From IMG/VR virus record IMGVR_UViG_3300048927_000381, positions 1 to 52,867 of that record: DNA of 52,867 nt, one strand, 5' to 3'. Source of the stretch: a virus. Position numbers and translations under genes: made by a program. Position 1 is the first letter of the stretch. Each line of letters starts with the position of its first letter. This document shows, piece by piece, positions 5,131 through 34,587 of the stretch. The notes beneath the pieces are model-generated. The model had not been told where the DNA came from. It made no database searches and was given only the letters and a program-made list of their open reading frames with translations.

Positions 5131-5372
5131 TCGCCCCCACTCTTGAGCGCGGATTACCGTCTTGGGGTTGGGGGGGGCTGGATATCAGCAAACACCGGGA
5201 AGCCGCCTGCAACTCTGCAAATGACCATTAGATCAGATATTCCTCCTGAACCACAATCGACGCAAGTGTGCCATATCGGTGCTACTGCTACGCCAATTGG
5301 TGCCGTGCCAGTGAGGCACCGCTACCAAGTCGCTGAAAAACATAATATGCAAATTCGGACAGGGGGATTCGT

Positions 5373-6494: not shown

Positions 6495-6504
6495 ACGTCC
6501 GCGG

Positions 6505-8373
6505 TTATGCTGCCGGATACCTCGCCGGGCGACCAGCGTTGGACCATTCGGTTATCGCTGCGGCCTCAAGGACCGAAACCCATGTGGCCTCATGGGTGCC
6601 GTCCTTGGTAGCAATTCGCGTGACTGGATCGCCAACTGCATAGCTGACGCTGGATGGCGTGCCGCCCGTTTCGATCGTGAGCGTCTGCGTGCCGTTGCCG
6701 TTATCGACCGCCGCCGTCACCGGCCCCATGAGCTTCGTGCGGTCGAAGGTCGCGCCAAGGGACAACATGTCGCCCGGCTGGAACACGTTGCCGTTGAGGG
6801 TGATAGAAGTGCCAGTCGACCATGCCACCGCCACGGTGGACGAAGGGCCTGACGGGAAAGCGCTGCGCGCCTGATCGAAGCCGCCCGCGCCGTATGCCAT
6901 ATCCTTGGCCGCCGAACCGTATTTACCCATGTCGATGACGAAATCCCATATCGGGTTCCCACCGCTGGTGTTTGCCAAAATGAAGTTGTTGAGGATGGCA
7001 CGCTTACCATTGGGATAGGTGTCGTCTGCCGCTGGCGTCTGGCCAGCCGCGGTGCGATAATCGCCACCGGTGCCGATGCGCGGTGGTAGCGTGGTCTTCC
7101 CGTGCTTTGCGGCAGCACCGAGCAGCGAGGCGAGGCCAGCGCGCTCCGTCTGGATGTTCGTAATGTTCGCGGTCAGGTCGCCATTATTGCCATGGTTGCT
7201 GAGCGTGTACGTGAACGGGCTTTTCCCGCCATAGAGCGCCATGCACTGGCGGATACCCTCATAGCGGCAATCGGTGTCGCTGTCGGGCTTGGAGCCGGGA
7301 ATGGAAATGTTTGCGTGCGGGAAGCCCAGAGACACCATTGCCCGCGCGCCAGCCTGACGAGCGCCAAAGTTTTGGCTGGCAGGCAAGCCCGATCCGAAAT
7401 CGCCGACGCCATAAAAACGGCTGTCGCCGGTGAGCAGGAACGACACCAACTCGCCGGTTCCCGCATCTTCCGCCACCATCATCACAGGGCCGTAGCCAGC
7501 CGGGCTGTTGCTCAACTGCGCGATCGTCCCGGTAGAAGTCAGGAAGCTCTCAAACTCGGAGAAAGCACCAACGGTCGAGCCACGGCTGACATTCCCCGCT
7601 GCGGGCGCAGCAGATGCAATCTGAGAGGGGAAAACGTGCGCGGTGTTTGCCACCAGCACGATGGAGCAGTGCAGGAGGTCGCTGTTCGGCGGGATCAACA
7701 GGTCCGATCCGTCCGCTTCCTTGATCGGGTCCGTCCAGCAGCCCCAATCGTGGGTCGTATTGTAGCCATACAGCGAACCAGCGCCGCCCCGCGTTGTGCT
7801 GGGCTGGCCGCCGATCGTGGCCTTGCGCCGCTTGTTCGCCGCCCCGGTGCCGATACCCAGCGCGTACTCCACCTGAAACTGGTTCGGTACCTGCATCTCC
7901 GTCGGGCTGGCTCCGGTGTTGTTGCTGTAGAATCCTGGGAGCCAGACGCGAGGGTTTTTCAATGCGCGGTTGGGCGATTTGCCGGGGATAACCTGTAAGC
8001 TGGTCAAGTGGCTGCTGCTGTGCGCAACAGCCCGATCGGCAGGCCGCAAGCCGGAAGATGCAGGAACTGGAGTAGGTAAAGGTGCGGGCACGCCGTCTCC
8101 ACTCAGTGTTACCTCATACTCGACAGCATTTTTCCCTGACACGCCGCGCACGATAATGCTTTGAGAAACGCCTGCTGCGATTGCGGACGCCAACGCGATC
8201 TGGCTTCCGCTGACGCTCAAGTTCGCGTGCCCCGACACCTTGCTCCATGTAACAGGGGAAGCGAGGGGCGCGCGCAACGAGTAGACGTTTCCCATTTGCG
8301 ATTGTCCTACGGTCGATGCCTTGCCGGACACACTGCTCCCGGTGGCAGGATTTATGACTCCGCTGATAGGCAT
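6505..8373 (-). CDS. Tail spike/fibre protein with SGNH-hydrolase-like domain
   Basis: The 622-residue product is last in the late operon. Residues 1-100 are a Ser/Ala/Val-rich beta domain ending in a Pro linker (PAPLPTPVP), fitting attachment to the tail. The rest carries spaced motifs of an SGNH/GDSL esterase: LLTGDSRF (Ser318, block I), NHGNNGD (393-399, like block III) and DGTH (591-594, catalytic Asp/His pair near the C-terminus). Such enzymes remove acetyl groups from polysaccharides. A beta-rich insert lies between about 500 and 580. The esterase call is a motif-based inference. The neighbouring O-acyltransferase makes a deacetylating receptor-binding role attractive. Confidence 0.6.
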   Translation of the reverse strand: MPISGVINPATGSSVSGKASTVGQSQMGNVYSLRAPLASPVTWSKVSGHANLSVSGSQIALASAIAAGVSQSIIVRGVSGKNAVEYEVTLSGDGVPAPLPTPVPASSGLRPADRAVAHSSSHLTSLQVIPGKSPNRALKNPRVWLPGFYSNNTGASPTEMQVPNQFQVEYALGIGTGAANKRRKATIGGQPSTTRGGAGSLYGYNTTHDWGCWTDPIKEADGSDLLIPPNSDLLHCSIVLVANTAHVFPSQIASAAPAAGNVSRGSTVGAFSEFESFLTSTGTIAQLSNSPAGYGPVMMVAEDAGTGELVSFLLTGDSRFYGVGDFGSGLPASQNFGARQAGARAMVSLGFPHANISIPGSKPDSDTDCRYEGIRQCMALYGGKSPFTYTLSNHGNNGDLTANITNIQTERAGLASLLGAAAKHGKTTLPPRIGTGGDYRTAAGQTPAADDTYPNGKRAILNNFILANTSGGNPIWDFVIDMGKYGSAAKDMAYGAGGFDQARSAFPSGPSSTVAVAWSTGTSITLNGNVFQPGDMLSLGATFDRTKLMGPVTAAVDNGNGTQTLTIETGGTPSSVSYAVGDPVTRIATKDGTHEATWVSVLEAAAITEWSNAGRPARYPAA

Positions 8374-8376
8374 CGA

Positions 8377-8637
8377 TTAGTCCTCCACCAACACTGCGGC
8401 GCGACCCTTGCCCTTGACCCAAAAATGGTCGGAAGTGCCGGTAACAGCTTTCGCCCGTGTCATTGCAATTCCGTCTTTTTCGCCGGGCGCCGAAGCGCCA
8501 CCCATGAAAACGAGCATGGAGAATCCGGACTTCTGCTGGATCGTTACCTTTTGGTTGGCAATGGTAGTGTACCCGGTCGCGGCGGCTATATCCTGCCAAC
8601 TGCCGGTCATGATGAAATCAGGGTAGCTTTTGGCCAT
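8377..8637 (-). CDS. Small virion-associated protein (tail fibre/lysis border)
   Basis: The 86-residue product starts at the ATG behind GAAGGAA (8637), not at the upstream 108-codon start. It is beta-rich without a membrane span and contains TTIANQKVTIQQKSGFSMLVF. It sits four bases before the spike gene, so it is co-translated with it. Small beta proteins here are often spike-base or head-decoration-like parts. No family is recognised. Confidence 0.65.
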   Translation of the reverse strand: MAKSYPDFIMTGSWQDIAAATGYTTIANQKVTIQQKSGFSMLVFMGGASAPGEKDGIAMTRAKAVTGTSDHFWVKGKGRAAVLVED

Positions 8638-8783
8638 AGTAGGTTCCTTCGATGTCGTTGGTGTCGGGGCGGTCAAACGCTCAAAATTTAGGCCTTGGAC
8701 CAATGCGGGGCTGAAGGATCCTTATGGAAATGCCCGTATCCCGCCCCGCTCGACGCGGGACAGGGTGACATGAACTGTGGCCA

Positions 8784-9311
8784 TTATTTCTTCCCTTCCT
8801 GTTGATTGTCGACCTGAGACTGCTCAGCCACCCATCGCCGCAGAGCGATGAGATTCCACGCCTGCCGCTCGGCTATTCTGAGCTTGGCAAGAAGTCCGTC
8901 ACAATCGGCTCCTCCATAAGCTCGGCAGGTGGCTTCGCTGGCGAGGGACACTGGGGCTGCGTCGGAACTGCGGAGATCGGTGCGGGCGGCAAGCGCTGTC
9001 CGCACGCGCTCATAGCGAGCATCAACATCGGCAAGGCGAGCCTGATAGTCATTCACGGTCCTTTCGGTGATGGCGGCCTGATCGGCCTGCACGCGCTTCA
9101 CATTTGCGGCAGCCTGTCGCTGTGCTTCGGCGGTGGCGGCGCGGGCATTGGTGATGGTCTGCTGGTGCGCCTGCTGTTCAGCGGCGAGGCCGGTGCGGGC
9201 GGAGTCCCGTTGGGCGGTGCGAACCTCGACTTTCATGGCGAGCAGGGCGACGACGACAACTAGGGCAGCGATCAGCCCCTCGCGCCACCAGCGGGCGGCG
9301 GCCGCCATCAT
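8784..9311 (-). CDS. Rz-like inner-membrane spanin (i-spanin)
   Basis: The 175-residue product has one N-terminal membrane anchor (about residues 12-27, LIAALVVVVALLAMKV) followed by a long Ala/Gln/Arg-rich coiled coil (about 30-125). This is the architecture of Rz proteins that fuse inner and outer membranes in the last step of lysis. It is directly downstream of the endolysin and overlaps it by four bases. I could not find a clear embedded Rz1 lipoprotein; a 20-codon frame (8722-8784) starting at the stop (TAATG) has no lipobox. Confidence 0.75.
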   Translation of the reverse strand: MMAAAARWWREGLIAALVVVVALLAMKVEVRTAQRDSARTGLAAEQQAHQQTITNARAATAEAQRQAAANVKRVQADQAAITERTVNDYQARLADVDARYERVRTALAARTDLRSSDAAPVSLASEATCRAYGGADCDGLLAKLRIAERQAWNLIALRRWVAEQSQVDNQQEGKK

Positions 9312-9823
9312 GCCTCATTCCTCGACACCGGAGCGCCGTTGGCGGACAGATGCACCGGCCTGCCCAGCACCGGCACACCCCGCGGCCAGCGCCGGGCGAT
9401 GCACCGGCCCTTTGCAAGCCGCATGATGCTGACCGTGTCGCCCTGATTGCCACCCAGCACATGGTAGTGTGTGGCGTCCTCCCCGACATAGAAGGCGACA
9501 TGGCCGCCGCCCTCCCGATCGAAGACAAGGATAGCGCCGGGTGCCAGCACCGCTGCCCCAAGGTTCGCGCCCCATTCGGCCCACGCCTTGGCGCGCACTG
9601 CCACCTTCATGCCTGACAGGTCGATGCCCGCAGCTTTCAGGCAGTGAGCCACGAATAGCCCGCACCACGGGACGCTGTCGGCGTTGTAGGTGATGCCGAG
9701 GATTTTGAGGCCCAGCAGCTTTGCCCAGCCGAGGATGGTCGGGCTGTTCGCGGCTCCGGCCGCCTCGCGCGTGCCGAGCAGTTTCCGCGCAGCGAGCAGC
9801 CACGCCGGGTCGGTTGTGCCCAT
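9308..9823 (-). CDS. Endolysin, TIGR02594-type cysteine peptidase/amidase
   Basis: The 171-residue product starts at the ATG behind GGGAGATTGAA; the longer frame to 9892 would run through a terminator. It shows the NlpC/P60/CHAP-like pattern: VPWCGLFVAHCL (Cys54), EGGGHVAFYVGE (His108) and LGGNQGD (Asn126). The N-terminal helix (DPAWLLAARKLLGTREAAG) is typical of the TIGR02594 family. It should cut peptidoglycan at the end of infection. It lacks a signal peptide, so it needs a holin; the two membrane proteins upstream are candidates. Confidence 0.85.
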   Translation of the reverse strand: MGTTDPAWLLAARKLLGTREAAGAANSPTILGWAKLLGLKILGITYNADSVPWCGLFVAHCLKAAGIDLSGMKVAVRAKAWAEWGANLGAAVLAPGAILVFDREGGGHVAFYVGEDATHYHVLGGNQGDTVSIMRLAKGRCIARRWPRGVPVLGRPVHLSANGAPVSRNEA

Positions 9824-9837
9824 TTCAATCTCCCATG

Positions 9838-9860
9838 AAAAAAGGCGCCGGAAGCGCCTT
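9838..9860 (-). terminator. Intrinsic terminator before the endolysin gene
   Basis: On the minus strand a 7-bp GC-rich stem (AAGGCGC/GCGCCTT) with a 5-base loop is followed directly by TTTTTT. It lies between the membrane-protein genes and the endolysin, all on the same strand, so late transcription must read through it or restart after it. Confidence 0.8.
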
Positions 9861-9967
9861 GAAAATCGGTTGGTATTTGTGCGGATAGGCAAGTCAGCCG
9901 GGCGGACCTATTCAGGGTCAACCTCGCTCCGGACTTCCCCCCTTTTTCCTGTTCGGAGCGGGGACCA

Positions 9968-10381
9968 TCACGGCCCCGGCGGTGCTTTCCCTGCGCCGAT
10001 CAGCGCCTCACCGGCCGCCTGCATGGCTGCGCGAATCCGTCCGGTGACAAACCCCTTCGCCATGCCGATGATGCCGACGCCGACCGCCGCGATGCCGATG
10101 CCGGTAAGACCAGCTCCCAGCATGTCCAGTTGGTGCGCCTGCACCCACAGCACGGCCACCAGCAGGCAGAGCGCGGTGACGGCGATGTCCAGCGCCCATT
10201 GCGCCCGTCCCTTGGCCTGCAAGCCGATGACGACGCGGGTGATGATGACGCCGCAGATGCAGACGACGACTGGCCCGGCGGGAAAAGGATAGCCTGCGAT
10301 CCACCAGATGACGGGATCGCGCGAAAAGAGTGTGCCGGTCACGGCTGCTGACGCCCCCCATGTAAATCTCACCGCAGACAT
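9968..10381 (-). CDS. Holin-like polytopic membrane protein
   Basis: The 137-residue product starts at the ATG overlapping the end of the preceding gene; the much longer open frame upstream is a shadow. It has about three to four hydrophobic spans (near residues 24-50, 62-80 and 86-108) and a basic C-terminal stretch. Its position next to the endolysin and spanin makes a holin or holin-related function likely. No family signature was recognised, so the evidence is context plus topology. Confidence 0.6.
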   Translation of the reverse strand: MSAVRFTWGASAAVTGTLFSRDPVIWWIAGYPFPAGPVVVCICGVIITRVVIGLQAKGRAQWALDIAVTALCLLVAVLWVQAHQLDMLGAGLTGIGIAAVGVGIIGMAKGFVTGRIRAAMQAAGEALIGAGKAPPGP

Positions 10382-10920
10382 ACGGCTGCCAGTGCCGCGA
10401 CAAAGCTCAGGATCACGATAGCCCCGGCGCGGACAAGCACCGGCCAGCGCGACCACATATCGATGGGCATCGGTGCCTTTCGCAACTGGAACTCGATCCC
10501 AGGCTCGCCCAGGATGACGATCACCATCCAGAGGAAGCCGCAGCCGACCGCGATCGGGTCGATCCAGCGCTTGGCCATCACGACGCGGGCGACGGTGACG
10601 GGATCGTCCGGATTCCAGCCCCATAGCTCCAGCGCCGCCGCCCCGCACCGCAGGGTAAGCCCCAGCCCCGCCAGCAGGGTGATTCCCCGATAGAGCGTCA
10701 CAGGCTCCAACGGATGGTCGGCGAGGCGCGATGCCCAAATTCTGCTGGCCTGCTTCCCCACCATCATCGCCCCAAGGAACGTTGCGGCGGTCATGATGAA
10801 CAGGTTGAACAGGAACAGCGACGGGTCGCCATTGAAGCTGGGCGGCGCAAAGCTGATCGGCCCGGCTCGCACGGCTTCGGCGGCAACGCTCTGCGCGGCG
10901 CCCGCGACGGTGTGGATCAT
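10369..10920 (-). CDS. Polytopic membrane protein of the lysis region
   Basis: The 183-residue product has a soluble N-terminal segment of about 35 residues and then four probable spans (FLFNLFIMTAATFLGAMMV, a span near 78-95, VGCGFLWMVIVIL and AIVILSFVAALAAV). It overlaps the next gene by 13 bases. A pair of overlapping membrane genes just ahead of the endolysin suggests holin plus antiholin, but a fibre-attached or exclusion protein cannot be excluded. Confidence 0.6.
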   Translation of the reverse strand: MIHTVAGAAQSVAAEAVRAGPISFAPPSFNGDPSLFLFNLFIMTAATFLGAMMVGKQASRIWASRLADHPLEPVTLYRGITLLAGLGLTLRCGAAALELWGWNPDDPVTVARVVMAKRWIDPIAVGCGFLWMVIVILGEPGIEFQLRKAPMPIDMWSRWPVLVRAGAIVILSFVAALAAVCLR

Positions 10921-10969
10921 GAGGCCTCCTGTGCCTGATGGACGGGAATGCGGGCGGAGCGGCGAACGA

Positions 10970-11746
10970 TCAGACCGGCCACGTTACCGCGTCCATGATC
11001 GCGTCGATGTCATCCAGGCCGGGGGCATCTTCCAGCGCCTTTTTGGTGTCCAGCCGCACCTTGTCCACCAGCCGATCCAACACCTCCCAGTCGTCAGATA
11101 TAGCGAGGATCGCCGCAGCGGCTTCTTCCGGAGTGATGCCGAGCCGCGCTGCTTCATCGGTGATGCGCTCTTTCTGCGGGCCGTCCGGCATGTCGCCAGC
11201 GAGGAAAGCGCGCGCGGCCTCCGCCTTGCGGAGATACGTCATCGCCTGTCCGGAACCCGGCGTGATGACCCGGTTCCGACATGCTTCGGCGTCGGCGTCG
11301 ATCTGCGCCTTCTTGGCGAGGCGCAGCGCCGCCATGTCCACGGCCTCCAGTGTCAGCGTGTTCGAGCGGTGCGGGCCGGTGAGGCGAATGGCAATCAGCC
11401 CCGCCGATCCGCCCGACAGGATCAACTCGCCATCGCTGACCGCCTGCGCTTCGTCGCCGATGCACACGGTGCAATGCGTCGGAAGCCCGCCGACAACCGC
11501 CTCTTCCGCTCCGCCCGCCACGATCCGCGATTTGTCGATCGTCAGTTCAACGCTCTCGCGCCCATGCACCTCGCCAGCGTCGTCCATCCAATAGGCGTCG
11601 GGAAGGGCGTCGGGGACGATGGCATAGCGAGCGCCGTCTGCGTCGAGCATCGCGACATATTCGTCCATCCACGGCCAGGGCGCGGCGTGACTTCCGATCC
11701 CATCCGGCCCGAAGACGATGATCGACTGACCAACATACTGTGTCAT
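10970..11746 (-). CDS. Tail fibre assembly/accessory protein (DUF4376-like C-terminus)
   Basis: The 258-residue product begins MTQYVGQSIIVFGPDGIG. It carries, about residues 147-190, the pattern QIDADAEACRNRVITPGSGQ followed by a helix (YLRKAEAARAFLAG), reminiscent of DUF4376-type phage tail fibre accessory proteins. The last 70 residues are helical and acidic. It follows directly on the three small fibre-like genes. It probably helps fold or attach the fibre or caps the tail tip. Confidence 0.6.
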   Translation of the reverse strand: MTQYVGQSIIVFGPDGIGSHAAPWPWMDEYVAMLDADGARYAIVPDALPDAYWMDDAGEVHGRESVELTIDKSRIVAGGAEEAVVGGLPTHCTVCIGDEAQAVSDGELILSGGSAGLIAIRLTGPHRSNTLTLEAVDMAALRLAKKAQIDADAEACRNRVITPGSGQAMTYLRKAEAARAFLAGDMPDGPQKERITDEAARLGITPEEAAAAILAISDDWEVLDRLVDKVRLDTKKALEDAPGLDDIDAIMDAVTWPV

Positions 11747-12145
11747 TTATGCCTGACCTCTCACATTGAATATGGTGACGCGGATGTAATCGATCTGCGC
11801 GCTGGCGGCGGCGGAAGTGGTGGTCCAGTAGAAGGAATAGGCGCTGCTGCTGACGCCCAAGGCCATGCCGATCAGGTCCACGTTCAAGCCCTGACGCCAC
11901 TGACCAGCCGCGTAAACCTGTAGCTGCGCGCAAGGGACGTAAGGCAGCGATGGATAGGAGTAGGAAACGAATTTATAGATATTGAAGGGGTCGAAGGACG
12001 CAGGCCGGGCATGGATCGCGCTGTGCCAGACCTGCATGACGCGGTTCGTGTCCAGCAGCAATTGCGAGGGCGTCGCGCTGGAGACTGCGATGCCCGGCTT
12101 GGAAATTTTAAGGCCTGTGGCGTCCATACGGAGACGGTCCACCAT
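11747..12145 (-). CDS. Small fibre/tip protein, related to the next gene upstream
   Basis: The 132-residue product starts at the ATG that overlaps the preceding stop (TGATG); a GTG one codon earlier is possible. Its N-terminus MDATGLKISKPGIAVSSAT closely parallels the neighbouring protein's ASGVLRISKPGFDVNTAA, so the two share a module and probably dock to the same tail-tip site. The rest is aromatic and beta-rich, as in receptor-contacting phage proteins. No enzyme motif is visible. Confidence 0.65.
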   Translation of the reverse strand: MVDRLRMDATGLKISKPGIAVSSATPSQLLLDTNRVMQVWHSAIHARPASFDPFNIYKFVSYSYPSLPYVPCAQLQVYAAGQWRQGLNVDLIGMALGVSSSAYSFYWTTTSAAASAQIDYIRVTIFNVRGQA

Positions 12146-12522
12146 CACACATTCTCCGTAAACAGGTGAACATGGGCATAGGCGACTTGCCCCGAGGGCA
12201 GGGCGAAAGCGCTGCCAAACCCCACCACTGATGAGGTCGCCCAGACGTTATAGTCGCCGTGCGGCGAGTAGGTCGGGTTCCCTGACAGATACCACTGGAG
12301 GCCGTAGATCAGCAGCGGAACGACGCCCAGTCCATGACTGAGGGCGGTGCTGACGCGGGACGATCCATTGCCTGTAATCTGGAGCGTGTAGAAGGCCCGC
12401 TCGCGATAGAGGGCGTTGGCAGCGCTATCGAAAAGAAGATCGGACGAGGCGGCTGTGTTGACGTCGAACCCCGGCTTGGAAATCCGCAACACGCCAGACG
12501 CGGTGAGCTTGCACCTATCCAT
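12145..12522 (-). CDS. Small fibre/tip protein with LRISKPG module
   Basis: The 125-residue product starts at the ATG overlapping the preceding stop. Residues 8-25 contain the VLRISKPGFDVNTA module shared with the gene downstream, followed by a beta-rich domain (YTLQITGNGSSRVSTALSHG). The pair looks like a tandem duplication that diverged after the first 40 residues, a common way to vary receptor contacts. Confidence 0.65.
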   Translation of the reverse strand: MDRCKLTASGVLRISKPGFDVNTAASSDLLFDSAANALYRERAFYTLQITGNGSSRVSTALSHGLGVVPLLIYGLQWYLSGNPTYSPHGDYNVWATSSVVGFGSAFALPSGQVAYAHVHLFTENV

Positions 12523-12959
12523 TACGACCCCCCTGGCACGCGCAGGATGGCATAGTGCGCTGCCCAATTGGCGAGGCCGAACCTGTCGATCCAGATGGAA
12601 GAAGGGGTGATGATCGCGCTCGGCCCGTAGCCACGCGTAATGGTGACCGTCCCGCCGCTGCTGGGATTGTAGGCGTAGTAGGCGCTGGAGGACATCTGGA
12701 AGTAGTAATAAATGCCGTTGGCGGTGTCGTAATAGCCGATGATCGCCTGCGGCACATAGGCCAGCGCCGGGAAGGATACCGTCGTGCCGCCCACCGGTAT
12801 CCCGGTCATGATGCCCCGCGCATGGACCAGCGCGCCATGGGGCAGCATAGACGAGAAACTCAGGTCCGCGTCGCCAGCCGTGAAGGCGTCCACTGCCGGA
12901 GGAGATGTGAACAGCCCATAATCATCATTGGCGCGCCGCCCGTACACCAGCCTGCGCAT
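12522..12959 (-). CDS. Tail tip/fibre-associated beta protein
   Basis: The 145-residue product starts MRRLVYGRRANDDYGLFTSP and ends one base before the host-specificity gene's stop. A middle part rich in Tyr (YYDTANGIYYYFQMSSSAYY) suggests a carbohydrate- or protein-contacting beta domain. It is the first of three small genes between the large tip protein and the fibre accessory gene. Confidence 0.6.
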   Translation of the reverse strand: MRRLVYGRRANDDYGLFTSPPAVDAFTAGDADLSFSSMLPHGALVHARGIMTGIPVGGTTVSFPALAYVPQAIIGYYDTANGIYYYFQMSSSAYYAYNPSSGGTVTITRGYGPSAIITPSSIWIDRFGLANWAAHYAILRVPGGS

Positions 12960-12960
12960 A

Positions 12961-15900
12961 TCAGAGGCCGTCGTTCACGATGAGAGCGCCATTGGTCCAC
13001 GTCAGTGATGGCCCGCCGCCCGATTTGGTCACGCTCATGGCGTCCGCCTCGACGTCGAATGTCGATGTCGAGGCATTGCCGTCCAGCCTGACGCGCCCTA
13101 CGATCTTGCCAGCGACGTTCAGCGCTACGCCCCATTGGGCGACAACGCCGTCGACGCTTCGCTGAATGACCTCGACCGATGCGCGATCCCCTGATGGCAC
13201 ATATGCAGATGGGCCAACATAGGCGGACGTCACCTCGATAAACATCGGGCGGGTGATCCACATGTAGCTGTCGCCCTGCCCAGCATAGGTGCCGCCCTTG
13301 TAGGCAACAGGAACGGCGAAGGCCGCGTTCGCGGGAGCCTGCCCCTTCACATAACGGTTTGTCCATGCGTTGATGTCGGTGCCGCCAGTGCCTACCGTCA
13401 CATATCCCGCGTCGGTGGCGGATATGAAGCCATTCGCCGCCGTGTACCATTCGATCTTGATGCCACAATTGGCGCGGTGCGCGGCTTGGAACAGTTCAAA
13501 CGAGTACCATTTGTTGCCCTGCACGGGGATGCGCTGGGTATGCAACTGGCCCCAATCCCCGGTGTTTCCGTTCACTTGTCGCATACCAAAAGTATGCTCA
13601 CCTTGCCCGGCCCCAAAGTTACCACCGGGCCGCCACCCATCGCCAGCCAGATCACGAACTGCGAGTTCCGTATAGGAGCCGGGGAATGGCGAGTACCAAT
13701 CCCAGCCCGCAGGCCAGCCCGGAGCGGCAAAGCTGCTTTGCGGCAGGAGGTTGCCTGATCCCGTGGTGACGTTCTGCTGCAACAATGCGACGTTGCCCAG
13801 GGCCGTCGTCATGCTCGACTGGAGGACGCCGACCCGCCCGCCCGGCGTCATGACTTCGGTGTTCAGTTCGGAAAGCTGGGCGTTCATGCCCGCCATGACC
13901 GTATAGGCCTGCCGCAGCGAGGCCTCGCCCGAATAGGCGGTGGAGATGCTCCCGGCCTCCAGCTTCACGAGGCGCAGGTTATGCTCTACCGAGGTGCCGC
14001 TGGTCTTTTTGAAGTAGAATACGACGCGGAGCTTCACCGTGCCAGCCGCAGCAGTGACGGTGAACTTGCTCGCATCACGGTTGACGAGGCCCGTGTCGAA
14101 GCCGAAGTCGTTGTAGACGCGGCCCGGTGCGTTGACATAACCGATCAGTGCATCGCCTGCGCCCAGCCACTGCACCTGTGCGATTAGAGTGCCGGTGCCA
14201 CCAGAGATGTTGAAAGCGGCGTCATAGGTCAGCGTGTACGTTCCCGAAGACGCAGCGATGTCGGTGTAGATGAGGCTGTCAGTCCCGTTGGCTATGTTCG
14301 ACTGGTTGTAGGCATAGGTTCCCCAGATATTGTTGGTGGCCACGGACCACCCACTGAGGTTGGTCACCCACCCCGACAGGCCATTCTCAAAGCTGCCGTT
14401 CGGGATCAGGTTCGGATTGCCGGTTGCCCGCAGCGTGTTCGTCAGCGTGGCGAGGCTGCCCGTCAGCGCCGTTGTCGCGTTCAGCGCCTGCTGGACACGC
14501 CCTCCCGGCGTATTGACCTCGGTATTGAGGCCAGCGATCAACCCCGAGTTGGATACGCCGGTCTGATAGGTGCTGTAAGCCGAGGCCTCCGAGGAGAAAG
14601 CGGTCGCCTTGTCGCCTGTCTCCAGCTTCATGCGGCGGACGCCTGCATTTGTGAGGCCTGTCACACTCTCAAGAACGAACCGGCACTCAATGTATGCTGT
14701 TCCAGGAGGGCACTGGGCCGTGCATTTATATAGCTTGCGGTTTGTGTCACCCGTCGAGAAGTCGATGTTAAGCGGGAAGGGCGTTTGCGGGGCGTCAAGA
14801 ATTACCCCGTCGTCGCTATCACGAAATACCATGTCGACATAAGCAGCACCGCTGGTAGCGAAAAAGCTCACATCTGCTGAAAGGGTATAAAAAGCGCCTG
14901 CGCGGGGGGCGTCGAACCGCTTGGTTAAATTGTAGGTGCCGTTGGCAGAGGCGGGGCGATAGGCAAAAAGCCCCCATGATGGATCATTGACAGCTACCCA
15001 GCCACCATCGTGCGTCCATCCGTCCAGCGTAGCAAAGTCCCCGCCCAGCAACAGGTTCGGGTTCGCCGCCGACGAAATCCCGACAATCTCCTCGCTCAGG
15101 TCGATGATGCTGGCGTTGATCGTGTCGATTTCGGTGTTGATGGCGGCAAGGTCGGTATCGACCTGTGTCTGGACGACGGCGACCGTCGCTTCGGCGGCGG
15201 CTAGGTCGGTTTCAAGTTGGCCGATGATGTCGACCTGTTCGGCAAGCTGGCCCTCAATGATCGTGACCTTGCCCAGCCCGGTGGTCACGTTAGCGAAGAT
15301 CGTCTGATTGCCGTCGATGGTGCCGACCCGGTAGCCGATCCGGACGTCATAGGCGGTTTCGGATTCCAGCGGCGCGATGACATGGCTGACCGGAGCGATG
15401 GCCGAGAGGATGGCGCTATTGCTCCATTCCGTGTCCGCAGACCGCTTATAGTCGATGACGATCGCGTCTGCCGATGGCATTTCGCTTTCGCCCGTCACCA
15501 GGAGGGCCGGGAAGCCCTCGCCGGATGTCGTGCCTGCGACGCTCCAGCTCAATGCTTCAGGCGCGGCGGGGATGAGATCAGGCGCCGTCAGCGCGAACGG
15601 CGTCGGCGGCGTGGTGGACTGGCCGAGAGCATAGGCGTGCTTCGAGAACGTCTCCGTCTCGCCGGCGAACGCCACCTTGCCGGTGGACGGATCGGGCGCG
15701 CGGCGGGTGATCAGCACCGGCTGATTTACCAGCCCCTCTTCCGGCACATTGAGCAGGACGACGTCACCGGTTTTCAGCCCGATCCATTCCGGTCCGGTCG
15801 TCCATGTGAACGGCCCAGCTTCGCGGCTGTTGACGATGGCATAGGCGGCCAGTTGTCCTGGCTGCCTGGGTTCCTCGCCACTGAATACCTGCACCAGGGG

Positions 15901-17148
15901 GAAATCGATTTCCTTGGTCCGCTGGCCGCCGTCTGTCGCCACATAGACAGGCTCCGACACCTCCGTGCCGGAAATGACCGCCCAATCGCTGTCCTCATCG
16001 ACATAGCGTGGAATGACGGTGTTGAACCGGTCGCGGCGGCTTTTCGTCGTGGGCAGGCTCAGGCCGTCATGCAGATGCCTGCTCTCGATCGTCGCCACCG
16101 CCGTGCGTGGCGTGTTGACGATGCAGCCAACCATTGCACCGGTGCGCGTCGGCCGAGCGCCGCCGGCCTGAAGGATCCGCTTGAAGCTGTCCCACTTGCT
16201 GTCGGTCGTCCACTCGACGCCGCCCACCTTCCAGCCGTTCGCATCGCAGACGTTCGCGCATTCCACGAAATCAGCGACCCGGATGTTCGCCACCGGGGCG
16301 CCAATTCCGCAAACCCGCTTGCCATTCTGCCAGCGGCCGAGCGCCCACGTCAGAGCGTGAAGGCCCGGATTGTCCGACCATTCATAGGTCGCCTCGTTGA
16401 GCGCCCTGTGCGAGCCAGATCCGCCGGGATAGGTGCTGTCCTTGCGCGGGTCGTAAACCTTGACCCACTTGCCTATCCAGGCTGGTTCGGGAGGACCAGC
16501 GCCGTACAGCTTGCCCTTGGTGTCGAACCGCATCGCCCACTGAGCATGAGCGATACCGCTGAGCTTGTGATTGGCGGTCCAGCCCGGGAATTGCTTCCCG
16601 CCGAAGGTCATCGTCAGCGCGGGGCCGGTCGATGGCCCCAGCGATACCTTCTGCGCCATATAGTCGTCAAATCGCCCAATGGCATTCCCATTGGAGGCGA
16701 ATGTCACCACCTCATTGTCGGCGGTGAACCGCTCTATGCCCTGAATAGGCCCGGCAATCGAAAGCATCGCGACGAAGGCGAGAATGTCGTCCTTCGACTG
16801 CTGCTTGAAGCCGTCATATGTCCGGGCATAGATGCGAAGGCCCGACATGCGCGTGCGTCCCATCGCATAGGGGAGACCGCTCTGCGGGTTTGTGGTGAAG
16901 CTGGTCGCGCTACCCTGGGCGGACACGCCGGGCGCGGTGGCGGCGGCGGCCATCGACAGCGCCCCGGCGGCGAGTGAGCCATAGGTACCGATGGCGGTCA
17001 GCGTGGCGGCGGAAACGCCCGCTATGCCGCCTGCGCTCGCCGCTGTGGTGGCCGTGGCGGCGGCAGCAGGGGCGGCGAGACCGGCCGTAGCAGCGATGAT
17101 CGCGACGGCGCCGACAACCAGCGCGGCCTTGCGGAGGAAGCCGGACAT
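12961..17148 (-). CDS. Tail tip host-specificity protein (lambda gpJ-like)
   Basis: The 1395-residue product is the largest gene. Residues 1-80 are hydrophobic Ala/Gly-rich. Residues 80-500 form the conserved hub part (GRTRMSGLRIYARTYDG, GIGAPVANIRVADFVECANV). A fibronectin-III-like segment follows (about 530-625), then a coiled coil (630-692). Three jelly-roll carbohydrate-binding-like domains open with NPNLLLGGDF (697), NPNLIPNGSF (911) and NLLPQSSF (1133). Between them the linker LNTEVxTPGGRV recurs (874 and 1095). The end (about 1320-1395) resembles DUF1983 of gpJ proteins. It forms the tail tip and binds the primary receptor. Confidence 0.9.
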   Translation of the reverse strand: MSGFLRKAALVVGAVAIIAATAGLAAPAAAATATTAASAGGIAGVSAATLTAIGTYGSLAAGALSMAAAATAPGVSAQGSATSFTTNPQSGLPYAMGRTRMSGLRIYARTYDGFKQQSKDDILAFVAMLSIAGPIQGIERFTADNEVVTFASNGNAIGRFDDYMAQKVSLGPSTGPALTMTFGGKQFPGWTANHKLSGIAHAQWAMRFDTKGKLYGAGPPEPAWIGKWVKVYDPRKDSTYPGGSGSHRALNEATYEWSDNPGLHALTWALGRWQNGKRVCGIGAPVANIRVADFVECANVCDANGWKVGGVEWTTDSKWDSFKRILQAGGARPTRTGAMVGCIVNTPRTAVATIESRHLHDGLSLPTTKSRRDRFNTVIPRYVDEDSDWAVISGTEVSEPVYVATDGGQRTKEIDFPLVQVFSGEEPRQPGQLAAYAIVNSREAGPFTWTTGPEWIGLKTGDVVLLNVPEEGLVNQPVLITRRAPDPSTGKVAFAGETETFSKHAYALGQSTTPPTPFALTAPDLIPAAPEALSWSVAGTTSGEGFPALLVTGESEMPSADAIVIDYKRSADTEWSNSAILSAIAPVSHVIAPLESETAYDVRIGYRVGTIDGNQTIFANVTTGLGKVTIIEGQLAEQVDIIGQLETDLAAAEATVAVVQTQVDTDLAAINTEIDTINASIIDLSEEIVGISSAANPNLLLGGDFATLDGWTHDGGWVAVNDPSWGLFAYRPASANGTYNLTKRFDAPRAGAFYTLSADVSFFATSGAAYVDMVFRDSDDGVILDAPQTPFPLNIDFSTGDTNRKLYKCTAQCPPGTAYIECRFVLESVTGLTNAGVRRMKLETGDKATAFSSEASAYSTYQTGVSNSGLIAGLNTEVNTPGGRVQQALNATTALTGSLATLTNTLRATGNPNLIPNGSFENGLSGWVTNLSGWSVATNNIWGTYAYNQSNIANGTDSLIYTDIAASSGTYTLTYDAAFNISGGTGTLIAQVQWLGAGDALIGYVNAPGRVYNDFGFDTGLVNRDASKFTVTAAAGTVKLRVVFYFKKTSGTSVEHNLRLVKLEAGSISTAYSGEASLRQAYTVMAGMNAQLSELNTEVMTPGGRVGVLQSSMTTALGNVALLQQNVTTGSGNLLPQSSFAAPGWPAGWDWYSPFPGSYTELAVRDLAGDGWRPGGNFGAGQGEHTFGMRQVNGNTGDWGQLHTQRIPVQGNKWYSFELFQAAHRANCGIKIEWYTAANGFISATDAGYVTVGTGGTDINAWTNRYVKGQAPANAAFAVPVAYKGGTYAGQGDSYMWITRPMFIEVTSAYVGPSAYVPSGDRASVEVIQRSVDGVVAQWGVALNVAGKIVGRVRLDGNASTSTFDVEADAMSVTKSGGGPSLTWTNGALIVNDGL

Positions 17149-17573
17149 TACAGGACGCTCCAGGCGGCGGAGGGGGTCAGGTCGACGGTAACCAGGCCGC
17201 TTTCCAGATGATCCTCATGGAAACCGAGCACATGCCCGTTGCCCGCGTAAATCCCGATGGCATCCAGACCCGCATGCCCTTCGGCCGCGACCAGATCGCC
17301 CAGCAGCATCCGCGAGTAGGGTATCCGGCTCAGGCCGATGCCGTCGAGCAGCAGCGGGAGGCTGTCATAACCCATGCGCGTGATCGCGCGCCGGGCGCCC
17401 AGCGCCGTGCTGTACGCGCCCGCCTTGCTGATCTTCACGGGGTGACCCAGCTTCTTCAGGTGATACGCGGCGACCTTTGCGCAATCGACCTTGCCCCATT
17501 GGAAGGGCCGATCCCGGTAGCGGGACATGGTCGCCTCGATCGCGGCGTGGCGGCGTTCCAGCGGCGTCATCAT
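17148..17573 (-). CDS. NlpC/P60-like tail tip peptidase (DUF6950-type)
   Basis: The 141-residue product starts at the ATG that overlaps the previous stop. It has GKVDCAKVAAYHLKK with the putative nucleophile Cys, GDLVAAEG, and NGHVLGFHED with the catalytic His. This fits the NlpC/P60-type protein that sits before the gpJ-like gene in siphophages (the lambda gpK position). It likely digests peptidoglycan during genome entry or processes the tip. Confidence 0.8.
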   Translation of the reverse strand: MMTPLERRHAAIEATMSRYRDRPFQWGKVDCAKVAAYHLKKLGHPVKISKAGAYSTALGARRAITRMGYDSLPLLLDGIGLSRIPYSRMLLGDLVAAEGHAGLDAIGIYAGNGHVLGFHEDHLESGLVTVDLTPSAAWSVL

Positions 17574-18217
17574 GCGCCAAAGGCCGATATGATGGACCGG
17601 GAATTGGCCAATGCTGCCGCAAGCCCGGTTTTCTGGTTGCTGCCCTGCGGCGGCTTCGCGCCCCAATAGAGATTGACGTCGGTCCCCGTCATGAATTCCA
17701 GACCGAGTTCCCCCGGATTGATCGACTGGTGCCAGCCGTTGCTGGCGCGCTGACCCTCTTCAACCTCGAACAGGCGCTCGAACACGCTGACGACGGAATA
17801 TTCGACCTTGCGAGCGCCGCTCCCGTCGATGCTGATCGTGGGGACATCGATTTCGCCGAGGAACAGGACTTCGGGCGCGCCAATGGCGACACCGGACATA
17901 GGATCGACGGCACCGGCCATGATCTTGACCGGGCTGCCCTGCATAGCGGCGTTTACCAGCACCGCCGTGGCGCTGATATCGGGCGGGAAGAGGCTGACCG
18001 TCACCTCGGGCGCGCTGTCGTCAATCTCTTCGCTGATCTCCGAGATATCGGCGAGGGTTCCGAAGGTGGCGTCGATGCCCGTGTGCAGTTCGCCGCTGAC
18101 GACGACATTCGCAGATCCGTCGACCAGGCGGATCGTGTGATCGGGCAGGTCGATGCGCACGGCGCCGAACAGGAAGACGCCGGACAGCGCCAGCGCATTT
18201 TTCAGGGCGGTATCCAT
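17570..18217 (-). CDS. Minor tail/tail tip protein
   Basis: The 215-residue beta-rich product (AVRIDLPDHTIRLVDGSANV) lies between a tail protein and the NlpC/P60 gene, the place held by lambda gpL-type tip proteins. It overlaps both neighbours by a few bases. It has no Cys cluster for an iron-sulfur site as in gpL. The role is assigned from order alone. Confidence 0.7.
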   Translation of the reverse strand: MDTALKNALALSGVFLFGAVRIDLPDHTIRLVDGSANVVVSGELHTGIDATFGTLADISEISEEIDDSAPEVTVSLFPPDISATAVLVNAAMQGSPVKIMAGAVDPMSGVAIGAPEVLFLGEIDVPTISIDGSGARKVEYSVVSVFERLFEVEEGQRASNGWHQSINPGELGLEFMTGTDVNLYWGAKPPQGSNQKTGLAAALANSRSIISAFGA

Positions 18218-18816
18218 CAGGCGGCCTCCGCCACGGTAAAGGTGAAGCTGGCGAGGCGTTCGACGGCGATCTCCCAGGACATTTCGTCACCGGGGTTCAC
18301 GATTCCCTCGATCTTCGGATCGAGCTCGACGACGTCGTTGATCGACAGGGTCGTGCGCAGCATCGGCCAGACGACAGCGCTCAGCGTGCCATCGGAGGCG
18401 GCGACGCCGTCGGCGGCGAAGATGTGGATATACCGCCGGCCGCCATGGATGAAGGCGAAGAACTGGCCTTCGTGCACGGTCGCGCCGGGGGTGAATCCCT
18501 TCATGGCGACGCCCATGCCGCTGGTGACGGCGGCGGCGACCAGCGGAGCGCCGGGCGTGCCGATGTCGAAGTCGGGCTGGGGCCATTCGATGCGGAGGCG
18601 ATCGTCCATCGCGCGCAGCAGGCGCGACTGCACGGTGAGCGCCTTGTCGCGCGTGGGCATCGGGGGGAGGGTGACGCGCAGGCCGAAGCGGGTGCCCAGC
18701 CGGTTGATGAGCTGATCCGGGCCGCCCAGGAAGGGGGTCAGGACGCCGCGGAAAGAGCGCACGTAGGGGACGGCGCCGTTCGGCACCGCCCAGTCAGGCA
18801 TCGATATGATTGTCAT
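18217..18816 (-). CDS. Minor tail protein downstream of tape measure
   Basis: The 199-residue product starts MTIISMPDWAVPNGAVPYVR and ends with a beta strand pair (ERLASFTFTVAEA). It directly follows the tape measure gene, the position of lambda gpM-like distal tail proteins. The N-terminal WxVPNGAxP pattern recurs in sphingomonad and rhizobial siphophage tail proteins. No enzymatic motif is visible. Confidence 0.7.
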   Translation of the reverse strand: MTIISMPDWAVPNGAVPYVRSFRGVLTPFLGGPDQLINRLGTRFGLRVTLPPMPTRDKALTVQSRLLRAMDDRLRIEWPQPDFDIGTPGAPLVAAAVTSGMGVAMKGFTPGATVHEGQFFAFIHGGRRYIHIFAADGVAASDGTLSAVVWPMLRTTLSINDVVELDPKIEGIVNPGDEMSWEIAVERLASFTFTVAEAA

Positions 18817-23794: not shown

Positions 23795-24121
23795 TCAGGC
23801 CGCCGCCCGAACTGCTGTGAGCCGCCGTCCGCCGTTGTCGAGATCGTGCGCCGCCGTGATGTTCCAGATGCCGCCGTCGAACGCGATGCGGTGGTCGATC
23901 ACGCTGACGGCGCGGGTTTTGCTGTTGCTCAGCACTTCGAACGATGCGCTTTGCGACCCGCCCTGCTGCGCCGCTTCGCGCTGCTCGGAGCCGGTGCCGT
24001 AATAGACGGCGGCATATTCCGGAGCGTAGTTCGCCCAGGTCTCCACTTCGCCGCCATAGACGTCGGACGCGGTCGTCCGCACCTCAATCATGATGCGGTG
24101 GCGACGATTGCGAGCTTTCAT
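23795..24121 (-). CDS. Head closure protein (TIGR01563 family)
   Basis: The 108-residue product is a compact SH3-like beta protein: MKARNRRHRIMIEVRTTASD, then a conserved WANYAPEYAAVYYGTGSE segment and a final beta hairpin. This is the SPP1 gp16/HK97 gp7 type that plugs the connector after DNA filling. It overlaps the connector gene by four bases. Confidence 0.87.
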   Translation of the reverse strand: MKARNRRHRIMIEVRTTASDVYGGEVETWANYAPEYAAVYYGTGSEQREAAQQGGSQSASFEVLSNSKTRAVSVIDHRIAFDGGIWNITAAHDLDNGGRRLTAVRAAA

Positions 24122-24405
24122 GCGACGGCCGGATCGCGATCACGGTGCAGCAGCGCCCTGGCAGCGGCGCTCAGCGGCTCCCCTTCATCGCTGAAGAACA
24201 GAGCGCGCAGCACAAGGATCACAGCCGCCTTGATACGGAACGGGACATTCTCCGAGGTCCATCCCAGTTCGTCCAGATCCTTCTTGATGTAGCCCATGAC
24301 TATGTCGGTCGCCATTTCCGCGTCCAGCAAGATGGTTGCATCTTCATCGTTAGCAAGGATGCTTAGCTGGGCTTTCGCTTCTGCGAGGGAAACAAGGGCC
24401 ACCAT
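24118..24405 (-). CDS. Head-tail connector (HK97 gp6-like)
   Basis: The 95-residue all-helical product starts at the ATG overlapping the upstream stop (TGATGG), with GGAAGG upstream; the longer open frame is a shadow. MVALVSLAEAKAQLSILAND followed by DEDATILLDAEMATDIVMGY is the gp6/connector pattern. It forms the ring under the portal. Confidence 0.87.
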   Translation of the reverse strand: MVALVSLAEAKAQLSILANDEDATILLDAEMATDIVMGYIKKDLDELGWTSENVPFRIKAAVILVLRALFFSDEGEPLSAAARALLHRDRDPAVA

Positions 24406-25376
24406 CAGCGAGCGTCCTTCCCATCGCGGCCCTTTTTCACGCAAAGCGTCCAGTCGCCGCCGTCGGGCTTGCCACCGGCGGCTTTGTCGCAGTGCCAAAG
24501 GCTGCCGCCCCAGGTGCAAACGTCGCCTTCCGTATAGGCCTGTCCATCGCGCCACACGCCGCGGTAGATCATTGCCGGGACTGGAATTTCGAACGCGTAC
24601 TGGCTCTCACCTTTCGCGAAGGCCATCCGGATCGTGCGGCCGTCCTCCATGAGCGTCATGTTCAGATCTTCGACGCCGAACGGAATTCCGTCCGTCCCAT
24701 CCCGGCCGACGATGATGCCCAACTCTTTCATCCGCCCATCGGTGAAGGTCGCTACCAAATTGCCGACGCGATCGATCACCAGATCTGCGATGCCGGCGCC
24801 GTCTTCTCCATCGGTTCCATCACGCCCGTCTTTTGGGGCGGGGATCGCGGCAACAGATTTGGCGACCTCGTCGGCGATCAGCGCCGCCACGGCATCCATA
24901 TCGGCGTCAGCACCGTCTTTCGGGGTCGGGCGGGCTTCGACGGCCGCGTCGATCAGGCGCTCGATTTCCGCCATGTTGACGTCCGTGCCGTCACGTCCGT
25001 CCTTCGGAGCGGGGATGGCGGCAACCGATTTGGATACCTCGTCGGCAATCATGGCTGCGACGGCGTTCATGTCGACATCCGCACCGTCTTTCGGTGCTGG
25101 GCGGGCTTCGATAGCCGCGTTGATCATTCGCTCGACCTCCGCCATGTCGACGTCCGCGCCGTCACGGCCATCCTTGGCCGTCGGAAGTGCTGCAACCCGT
25201 TCATCGAGCAGGGTAGACAGCCTCGGAACTGCTAAGGCCAAGAGGTCGACGCTCTCCAGCGCCACGACCCGATCGCGCAGCGCGCTGTTTTCCGCTATGA
25301 GGGGTGCCGTCGCACGCTCCACCTCGTCTGCGACGATTGCGGCGATCTCCTCGGCAAGAACCGCCATATCAAGCAT
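24405..25376 (-). CDS. Putative head fibre: repeat protein with CBM5/12-like domain
   Basis: The 323-residue product lies between portal and connector. Residues 1-67 form an N-terminal coiled-coil-like helix region. Residues 68-181 are two tandem copies of a 57-residue unit, each made of KDGRDG + (V/I)ERxIxAA(I/V)EARP and KDGADxDMxAVAAxIADEV. Residues 182-230 hold more KDGRDG/RDGTDG turns resembling collagen-like spacers. Residues 272-312 (YRGVWRDGQAYTEGDVCTWG, then SLWHCDKA and DWTLCV) match chitin/carbohydrate-binding modules of the CBM5/12 kind. This suits a protruding capsid-vertex fibre that sticks to sugars. It is not part of the minimal head gene set. Confidence 0.75.
   Translation of the reverse strand: MLDMAVLAEEIAAIVADEVERATAPLIAENSALRDRVVALESVDLLALAVPRLSTLLDERVAALPTAKDGRDGADVDMAEVERMINAAIEARPAPKDGADVDMNAVAAMIADEVSKSVAAIPAPKDGRDGTDVNMAEIERLIDAAVEARPTPKDGADADMDAVAALIADEVAKSVAAIPAPKDGRDGTDGEDGAGIADLVIDRVGNLVATFTDGRMKELGIIVGRDGTDGIPFGVEDLNMTLMEDGRTIRMAFAKGESQYAFEIPVPAMIYRGVWRDGQAYTEGDVCTWGGSLWHCDKAAGGKPDGGDWTLCVKKGRDGKDAR
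24834..25175 (-). repeat. Two tandem copies of a 171-bp coding repeat
   Basis: Copy 1 spans 25005-25175 and copy 2 spans 24834-25004; they encode residues 68-124 and 125-181 of the head-fibre protein. The copies differ mainly by conservative changes (IEARPAP versus VEARPTP; ADEVSKSV versus ADEVAKSV). The unit is a multiple of three, so gain or loss of a copy would keep the frame and lengthen or shorten the fibre. Confidence 0.85.
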
Positions 25377-26754
25377 CGGGCATCCTCTTTACGCGCAATG
25401 CCCGCCGGATTTCCCCGCCAAGGGCGAAGGAGGCCGCACGGGCTTGCTGATTGTCGTTTGCTGGCTCTTGGGCGTCGGTACCCGGCGCTGGCGAAGGGGC
25501 GGGGGCGGTGTTGAACGGATCCGCCTGCGCATCGCGGCGCGCGAGAGCCGCGAGTGAATAGTTTTGCTGTTGGAGATAGGGGCTCTCGCCGCCCTCCACC
25601 GATTTGCGATCGATTTTCGCCCGCGCTTCATTGGGCGACAGGATGCCGCTGCTGACACCCTCTTTGAGGGCCGACATCTGGGTGACGCTGTCCATGCGAA
25701 GCAGATTGTCGACCTCGAATTCGGTGCCAAGTCTGTCACCAGTCCCCAGCCCCTCATCCAGGCAGAGCTCGATCGCCTCGATGAGGATTTGCAGGCACTG
25801 GCTGTAATATTCTGTGTTCAGTGCCTGCACATTGTTATAGGTCGGTTGCGCCCCGATCCCCACCTTGTATGGAGGTACGTGATAGGTGGAGCAGCACATT
25901 TCGGCGGACCACTTAAGCGTCTCGACCACTTGGGCATCGACCGCCTTCATGGTCATCGATTCGAACTTCAGATTGTCGCCCAAGACGGCGACCTTCCCGG
26001 CATTGGCGCCGGAATAATTGTTGTCCCAATGATCTTTCAAGCGCTTCGCCGTCTCGTCGCTAATCGCGCCGGGCGCGGTCAGGATGCCGCCCGGGCGCGC
26101 GCCATTCTGGAACAGCCGCGCGCTGGCGTTCTGCGCCGCAAGCCCCTGCGTCGCCGCAAGTCCGTTGGCATAGATGGGCGACAGGCCGACCAGGGGGTGG
26201 AAAAAGCAATTGAACCGATCGTGGATAATCTCGCGAGCGGGAACAGTGACCTGGTCCACCACGCCCGAAAGGCGATCCGTCGAAAGCTGGTAAAAGACCT
26301 CGCCGTTCTCCGCGATCAGCGGGCGGCAACGGTCCGGCGAAAGAACATACAGCTTCGTGACGACGTTGCGTGCGTCCCGCTGTTTCAGAATATAGGCGTT
26401 GCCCGACTGGAGCTTGCTGAGGATCCAGCTTTCAAAGAACTGGATACGGTTCTGATAATGGTTCGGCTTGCGCAGCACGGGGCTGTAGGCCGGATTCGAA
26501 ACTTCCGACCAGATGCCGTCGTTATCCTGCTCCACAAGCTTACAGCGCAGTTTCGCGACGTCGGAGGCGATCAGGGTCTGGCATGAAAACACGGCATGAT
26601 AGGCAAGGACGCTGTCCGCCTTCACCTCGACATTTTGCTGCCACGCGCCAGTGAAGGACTCACGGATCAGCGGCCACCATCCGCGGTTGTCGACGCCAGA
26701 CATCTGTCCGGCGGACTTCTCACGCGTGATGTTATAGCCGAGGATGCGCATCAT
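25369..26754 (-). CDS. Portal protein, HK97 family
   Basis: The 461-residue product shows the HK97 portal signature: an N-terminal KADSVLAYHAVFSCQTLIAS, the stem/wing segments, VPPYKVGIGAQPTYNNVQAL, and a C-terminal disordered Pro/Ala tail. Twelve copies form the ring through which DNA enters and leaves. It overlaps the head-fibre gene by eight bases. Confidence 0.94.
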   Translation of the reverse strand: MMRILGYNITREKSAGQMSGVDNRGWWPLIRESFTGAWQQNVEVKADSVLAYHAVFSCQTLIASDVAKLRCKLVEQDNDGIWSEVSNPAYSPVLRKPNHYQNRIQFFESWILSKLQSGNAYILKQRDARNVVTKLYVLSPDRCRPLIAENGEVFYQLSTDRLSGVVDQVTVPAREIIHDRFNCFFHPLVGLSPIYANGLAATQGLAAQNASARLFQNGARPGGILTAPGAISDETAKRLKDHWDNNYSGANAGKVAVLGDNLKFESMTMKAVDAQVVETLKWSAEMCCSTYHVPPYKVGIGAQPTYNNVQALNTEYYSQCLQILIEAIELCLDEGLGTGDRLGTEFEVDNLLRMDSVTQMSALKEGVSSGILSPNEARAKIDRKSVEGGESPYLQQQNYSLAALARRDAQADPFNTAPAPSPAPGTDAQEPANDNQQARAASFALGGEIRRALRVKRMPDA

Positions 26755-33902: not shown

Positions 33903-34587
33903 GCTGCCCTCCAGCACCGCCAGTGCTGCTGTTCCGATACCCTGCATTCGATCCTCGCTTCTGCTGCCATTCGTCGGATTTGATCACCCAGGTCCGCCAT
34001 GCGGCCTGCCAGTCATGTTTCCGGGCGGTCGAGCCGCTCGCCGCCGCCCAATGGTCCCGGAACTTGGACAGCTCCCGTTCCAGCATGCCTGGCTCCCAGC
34101 GGCTGACGGTGTCGAACGCGACCGTACCGGGCTGGAACAGATCGGGTTGCCAGTCGGCGGGGAGACGCGTCGCGCGCTTCCCCGAAGATGCGTCAGCATC
34201 TGAGGGTATGATGGTTCTTGACGGTTTGTCCGAAGCGGCTTCGGGGGTTCCCGTTGCTCCTTTCGGGGGGAAGCGCTTTCGGGGGGAAGCGGCTTCGGGG
34301 GGAAGCGGCTTCGGGGGCGAAGCCTTTTCGGAGGCGATGACGGGATGAACGCAATATCGGCATCCGCGCCCAGGCACCTCAATGCGGGTCACATGCCCAG
34401 CCGTCACGAGGCTCTTCATGGCAGCCTGCACCGTGCGGTCGGTCTTGCTGCACTTCCGCGCCAGCGTCGCCATGGACGGCCAGCACTGGCCCTCGTCATT
34501 GGCACAGTCGGCCAGGGCGAGAAGCACGATCTTCTCGCTGTCGGGCAGATTGATTTCCCAGACGAGGGACATCACGCGAACGCTCAC
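33823..34587 (-). CDS. Lambda O-like replication initiator (HTH plus DnaT-like C-terminus)
   Basis: The 254-residue product starts at the GTG overlapping the previous stop (GTGA), with GGGGG upstream. Residues 1-85 are a winged helix-turn-helix (CWPSMATLARKCSKTDRTVQ). Residues 93-125 are a Pro/Lys-rich hinge encoded by the iteron array. The C-terminal segment DWQPDLF followed by RELSKFRDHWAAASGSTARK and DWQAAWRTWV is the DnaT-like DNA-binding/primosome pattern. It should bind the iterons within its own gene and open the origin. Confidence 0.8.
   Translation of the reverse strand: MSVRVMSLVWEINLPDSEKIVLLALADCANDEGQCWPSMATLARKCSKTDRTVQAAMKSLVTAGHVTRIEVPGRGCRYCVHPVIASEKASPPKPLPPEAASPRKRFPPKGATGTPEAASDKPSRTIIPSDADASSGKRATRLPADWQPDLFQPGTVAFDTVSRWEPGMLERELSKFRDHWAAASGSTARKHDWQAAWRTWVIKSDEWQQKRGSNAGYRNSSTGGAGGQHGDGFDEALGIVAARGSGNRRTGNRG
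34260..34323. repeat. Four 16-bp iterons: probable phage replication origin
   Basis: Units start at 34260, 34276, 34292 and 34308; the consensus is (C/G)(T/C)TTCGGGGGGAAGCG, with the last unit one G shorter and slightly altered. A partial unit occurs at 34235-34247. Each unit is itself a small palindrome (GCTTC/GAAGC around Gs). The period is not a multiple of three, so the repeated DNA encodes different residues in each copy; selection for the DNA is more likely than for the protein. Iterons inside the O gene are exactly how lambdoid origins are built. Confidence 0.8.

Follow-up and report, generated by a model that had tools for sequence, protein, structure and literature searches.

The window analysed here, a viral stretch of 52,867 nucleotides (IMG/VR virus record IMGVR_UViG_3300048927_000381, positions 1 to 52,867), contains a head module transcribed in the order terminase large subunit, S78 protease, major capsid protein, small ORF, portal, X, gp6-like connector, head completion protein and HK97-gp10-like protein, where X denotes the gene for the 323-residue fibre-like protein that is our subject (Table 1). 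Because X overlaps the end of the portal gene by 8 bp, has the sequence AAGAGG 7 nt upstream of its start codon and has one base of its stop codon in common with the likely connector start at 24405, it is an in-operon gene that is probably translationally coupled. Searches of NCBIfam and PADLOC returned no result, and a single-sequence search of the PDB with X gave chance matches only. Elsewhere, the window carries a separate tail-tip gene (phrog_5616), an O-acetyltransferase or O-antigen acetylase-like gene (5373-6494, plus strand; phrog_3333, 5.7e-43) that is likely a lysogenic-conversion gene, and a short 16-bp tandem repeat of about four copies at 34261-34331 (consensus TTCGGGGGGAAGCGGC).

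Table 1. Coordinates of X, its parts and its neighbours in the window, and of satellite-like elements at other loci.
Sequence	Feature	Coordinates	Strand	Evidence or content
Window	Portal protein gene	25369..26754	(-)	HK97-type portal; PF04860, 3.4e-92; 3' end overlaps X start by 8 bp
Window	X (PHROG 1289 family)	24405..25376	(-)	Intact ORF; phrog_1289, E=1.5e-62, residues 5-322
Window	X, N-terminal helical base, residues 1-63 (putative attachment end)	25188..25376	(-)	AF2 helices 4-42, 45-63
Window	X, stalk repeat 1, residues 68-124 (57 aa = 28+29-aa subunits)	25005..25175	(-)	TRF, unit analysis
Window	X, stalk repeat 2, residues 125-181	24834..25004	(-)	81.9% DNA and 80.7% protein identity to repeat 1
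Window	X, longest GXY run (4 triplets), residues 184-195	24792..24827	(-)	
Window	X, beta-rich neck, residues 196-265	24582..24791	(-)	AF2 strands 196-265
Window	X, C-terminal CBM5/12-fold tip, residues 271-317	24426..24566	(-)	Foldseek, VIA, PDB profile search
Window	gp6-like head-tail connector (Ad1)	24118..24405	(-)	PF05135, 3.5e-05; phrog_40; likely start 24405
L183	Satellite-like element	6987-8207, 11599-13029		Integrase, protease, mini-X, 70-aa gene, sialate-esterase-like gene
L186	Satellite-like element	9036-10257, 15432-16763		Protease, mini-X, 70-aa gene, MmeI-type restriction-modification gene, integrase
L184	Satellite-like element	7099-18428		Additionally AAA ATPase and tape measure protein
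L185	Satellite-like element	581-7289		Lone S78 prohead protease beside mini-X

The AlphaFold2 (AF2) model of X places helices at residues 4-42, 45-63, 78-91, 103-120, 135-148 and 160-177, after which come beta strands and, at the C-terminus, a compact beta domain; the first 40 residues reach a pLDDT of 91-96, and because the mean pLDDT is 78.5 and the pTM 0.35 we do not trust the overall arrangement. The base follows the loose pattern M.D..ALA..TA.IV......A.APL..R..ALE, and the four short helices beyond it are parted by PAPKDG turns. TRF reports a 171-bp tandem repeat of 2.1 copies with 82% matches at 24820-25175, in which each 57-residue repeat consists of a 28- and a 29-residue helix-turn subunit, and the two repeats differ at 29 codons, 11 of them with a residue change. 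The helical base and the two 57-residue tandem repeats proposed in a first-pass annotation of this DNA are thus both borne out, and of its collagen-like KDGRDG turns only short GXY turns stand: at most four triplets occur in the window X and PF01391 (Collagen) finds no match there, so that we do not class this protein as collagen-like. The same Pfam profile matches 19 of 53 relatives. When the stalk of an E. coli X was used in a PDB search, designed helical repeats were the only match (E 0.017).

Near-identical relatives differ in repeat number by whole units, which upholds, and goes well past, the further proposal that in-frame repeats let the stalk change length. One inserted unit separates the members of each of two pairs that are otherwise 99.8% identical, adding 52 residues in one (L022/L020) and 54 in the other (L009/L001), and the sphingomonad X proteins form a series of 329, 378 and 427 residues, in steps of 49. 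Length differences among E. coli prophages are exactly 162 or 486 bp: in the 56 places tabulated of 60 listed, the X span is 1500-1502 bp in 51, 1339-1340 bp in four, which are shorter by one 162-bp unit, and 1015 bp in one, shorter by three. A further candidate pair, L058/L068, was dropped as it is not a single insertion. The stalk itself can also be replaced, as in L032 and L071, which have an identical base, a 94% identical tip and collagen versus helical stalk segments, and across the family the stalk switches between helical repeats and true collagen. In relatives the GXY stretch can grow to 123 triplets, and at 0.286 nm per residue the uninterrupted runs of two portal-adjacent relatives would correspond to rigid rods of about 105 nm (L155, 369 residues) and about 67 nm (L169, 234 residues). 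Different tips likewise occupy X in the same slot behind the portal and are in this sense exchangeable.

By tblastn, X was found in PAJU2, IME307, FSL SP-016, JLK-2012, PPompW phages, RHph_X2_26, SOVA965 and EBPR siphovirus 3, where it is always the next gene after the portal, and searches of sequence collections added 160 further loci. PHROG 1289 matches all 53 aligned relatives. A same-strand portal lies directly upstream, with at most 30 bp from portal stop to X start, at 153 of 169 tip-bearing loci, the commonest overlaps being 8, 4 or 1 bp, and the connector is the next gene after X in 139 of 150 relatives. Since the 169 loci had been collected by their tip, we removed this bias with a survey led by the portal, which covered 136 unique portals with enough downstream sequence. 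X with a CBM tip follows 98 of them, eight more are followed by an X running off the contig and three by an X base without CBM, that is, 11 more with the base; another gene follows the remaining 27, many of these being short genes of base-like or collagen-like type that end in a different tip, and the connector follows directly in none of the 136. From these counts, the slot after the portal is standard for X in this portal clade and its occupation is near-universal, and the earlier view that no such gene is standard at this position was mistaken. Correlations of portal distances with those of the X base (0.43) and tip (0.34) were set aside as not discriminating, the tip appearing over-conserved in them because of the way the loci were collected.

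Several variations on this arrangement were seen. At several loci between L235 and L279 only a base-like gene of 60-100 residues, often ending in RIERDxDGxLVPIYDEP, follows the portal. In two Oceanospirillum and Shewanella phages (L010, L011) the gene behind the portal combines an X-like stalk with an unrelated tip that matches phrog_2725, for which the label 'acetyl-CoA acetyltransferase' is probably a mislabel. In two other prophages (L188, L193) a short helix-plus-CBM gene stands directly after the major capsid gene and not the portal. Two portals carry a CBM5/12-type domain at their own C-terminus with no stalk, one in Mcat9 (L008:2717-4165, 480 residues) and one in a sphingomonad prophage (L189:142-1689, 515 residues), and two PHROG profiles span portal and X. 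Such fusions are rare, a scan of viral_contigs for the Mcat9 type having found none, and a reading of the H3-H13 annotations as portal fusions proved wrong, portal and X being separate genes there. Beyond the portal clade X can be missing: in the Moraxella phages Mcat1 and Mcat4, whose portals share about 61-63% identity with that of Mcat9, the next small gene comes directly after the portal and X is naturally lacking, from which it follows that X is dispensable in some related phages.

The profile that spans the whole of X, PHROG 1289, bears the label 'portal protein', and RefSeq names the E. coli copies 'phage portal protein'. X contains no portal domain, PF04860 or other, by Pfam, and on this ground the family name is a mislabel; the second 'phage portal protein' of RefSeq, for example in E. 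coli Sakai prophage Sp10, belongs to the same family as X and occupies the same position after the portal. The JLK-2012 X matches 1,237 of 5,426 complete E. coli genomes (about 23%), and in 1,157 of these the match extends across 80% of the query or more. In the text of a catalogue of E. coli collagen-like proteins the word 'portal' is absent (PMC3368898). X is thus a widespread structural phage gene that goes under a wrong name and for which the literature searched describes no function.

Residues 271-317 superpose on the CBM5 of Serratia chitinase B (ChiB) with a VIA Z of 7.2 (1.7 A over 45 residues), Foldseek matches the tip to 2rts with a probability of 1.00, and CBM5/12 domains of Streptomyces ChiC and Bacillus ChiA1 share the fold. 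The best 35 VIA matches are all CBM5/12 domains or phage and injection-system parts with the same small domain, and they cover residues 268-323, mostly 271-317; the model of the isolated tip was weaker (pLDDT 72) and left unused. The CBM5/12-like domain of the first-pass annotation therefore holds as a fold, and its Pfam match in the window X is sub-threshold (PF02839, 17.7 bits against a cut-off of 26.2), the profile being matched at E<=0.01 in 21 of 53 relatives (best 4.8e-9) and exceeding its gathering score in the mini-X (see below) of one relative (28.9). In two enterobacterial phages (L001, L003) a second tip-like stretch, YPRGSYATHNGGLWRAYEKT..GWECLVDG, precedes the C-terminal tip and looks as if the CBM domain had been duplicated in tandem and had diverged; Pfam reports the last one only.

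The ligand face differs from that of ChiB, whose sequence was verified against the PDB. W479 and Y481 of ChiB, which we take to be ligand aromatics and for which the literature searched yielded no statement of a ligand role, align with K298 and A300 of X, and in 158 unique family proteins positions 297-300 never hold an aromatic. The family has thus retained the CBM fold and lost the known chitin-binding face, and the binding of chitin or mucus that had been envisaged for the tip is unsupported by the sequence. Agrobacterium phage Milano has the tip fold in its receptor-binding complex and phage 7-7-1 has it in its tail fibres, and by this analogy an envelope-binding or cap role is plausible.

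We favour, with moderate confidence, the reading that X is an accessory virion fibre with its base on the head or portal vertex, a variable stalk and an exchangeable tip for contact with the envelope. The N-terminal helical base would attach the protein, presumably a trimer, to the head, most probably at the portal vertex or close to it; the stalk would consist of helix-turn repeats or, in relatives, of true collagen; the CBM5/12-fold or another exchangeable tip would be the first part to touch the cell envelope, with low affinity; and gain or loss of repeat units would tune the reach of the fibre. A same-strand portal directly upstream, the connector as next gene, clean unit insertions, stalk swaps, long collagen runs, exchangeable tips and natural absence all argue for a fibre, as do the tip fold in Milano and 7-7-1 and the window's own tail-tip gene. 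Counting against this reading, the canonical chitin-binding aromatics are absent, and some relatives keep only a base-like gene of 60-100 residues in the slot, which suggests an independent function for the base. In the literature searched we found no virion proteomics or microscopy of the X family.

Known appendages offer partial parallels. The RcGTA head spikes GhsA/GhsB (Rcc01079/Rcc01080) bind capsule polysaccharide reversibly (PMC7296036) and resemble the proposed X in being flexible head fibres, anchored by the fibre N-terminus, on an HK97-type particle of an alphaproteobacterium. They differ in comprising two proteins, a jelly-roll base and 11 vertices, and their fibre attaches to the GhsA base through an N-terminal star with five points, the (I/L)-rich IALGLGLGL (PMC7296036), whereas X has no star and starts MLDMAVLAEEIAAIVADEVERATAPL. 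A title cited in PMC12796354 describes the phi29 head fibre gp8.5 as having a supercoiled stalk of repeating helix-turn-helix units, to which the X stalk may be likened. X differs in its short helical base and its CBM-type tip; a PDB search gave no sequence match of X to gp8.5 chains, and matches to the CBM domain took up the fold lists. In lactococcal 936 phages, the neck passage structure is a neck appendage with whiskers that varies between close phages (PMC4759559) and whose proteins exchange C-terminal domains (PMC10684548). It is like X in being accessory, variable and, by our proposal, located at the neck; its gene, however, lies upstream of the major tail protein gene in phages of Gram-positive hosts, and no homology to X was detected.

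In a variant of the fibre reading, one that overlaps with it and that we rate a serious contender, a little short of even, the tip is a protein-binding or structural cap and the CBM fold a reused scaffold that ends the fibre. The absence of aromatics at the chitinase B ligand positions in all 158 family members and the occurrence of the fold in baseplate and cap proteins of contractile injection systems (7b5h, 7b5i) are consistent with a cap, against which carbohydrate-binding domains dominate the fold matches in the PDB search and glycans could bind through other surface residues.

The position of X next to the portal allows a different placement, in which X is an internal head protein on the portal crown in the capsid lumen, acting in portal or prohead assembly or ejected with the DNA, in which case the CBM-like tip could touch peptidoglycan. 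Counting towards the lumen and against an external fibre are the two portal-CBM fusions and the PHROG profiles joining both genes, given that in solved portals the C-terminal crown faces the DNA inside the capsid (PMC10541612); the strict portal coupling, with gene overlap in most relatives, and the adjacency of mini-X to a prohead protease in satellite-like elements point the same way. Collagen rods of 67-105 nm, however, would fit poorly in a capsid of about 60 nm, and rapid unit-wise length change, stalk swapping, interchangeable tips and absence from some related phages all tell against a luminal protein. We regard this placement as unlikely and favour a fibre that stands outside, on the head or at the portal vertex.

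The satellite-like elements bear on the same question. In sphingomonads, a stalkless mini-X of 97-104 residues, made of base and tip, directly follows a lone S78 protease, and no capsid or portal homologues were detected inside mini-X elements, which look like phage satellites. One contig (L183) also holds a neighbouring, complete-looking prophage head module of protease, capsid, portal and X, whose protease is 64% identical to that of the element. No paper on satellites with prohead protease and tape measure was found in the literature searched. It is conceivable, if decidedly improbable, that the portal ring itself, whose gene overlaps X in one operon and is sometimes fused to its tip domain, holds X as a fibre or arm, and that satellites carry mini-X and a decoy prohead protease to seize this part of the helper head; if so, X would be a portal-anchored, length-tunable appendage targeted by satellites. 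That X length serves as an internal ruler for capsid size is hardly credible, for all that lengths change in whole units and mini-X occurs in small satellite-like elements, because genome sizes show no trend in the few phage records (462 residues with 43.8 kb, 408 with 57.2 kb, 335 with 46.9 kb) and Mcat1 and Mcat4 do without X.

If X is a head or neck fibre, as we favour, many temperate phages of proteobacteria would possess a length-tunable adhesin separate from their tail fibres, among them the prophages in about 23% of complete E. coli genomes. The natural length series together with the natural absences make X easily testable in laboratory strains.
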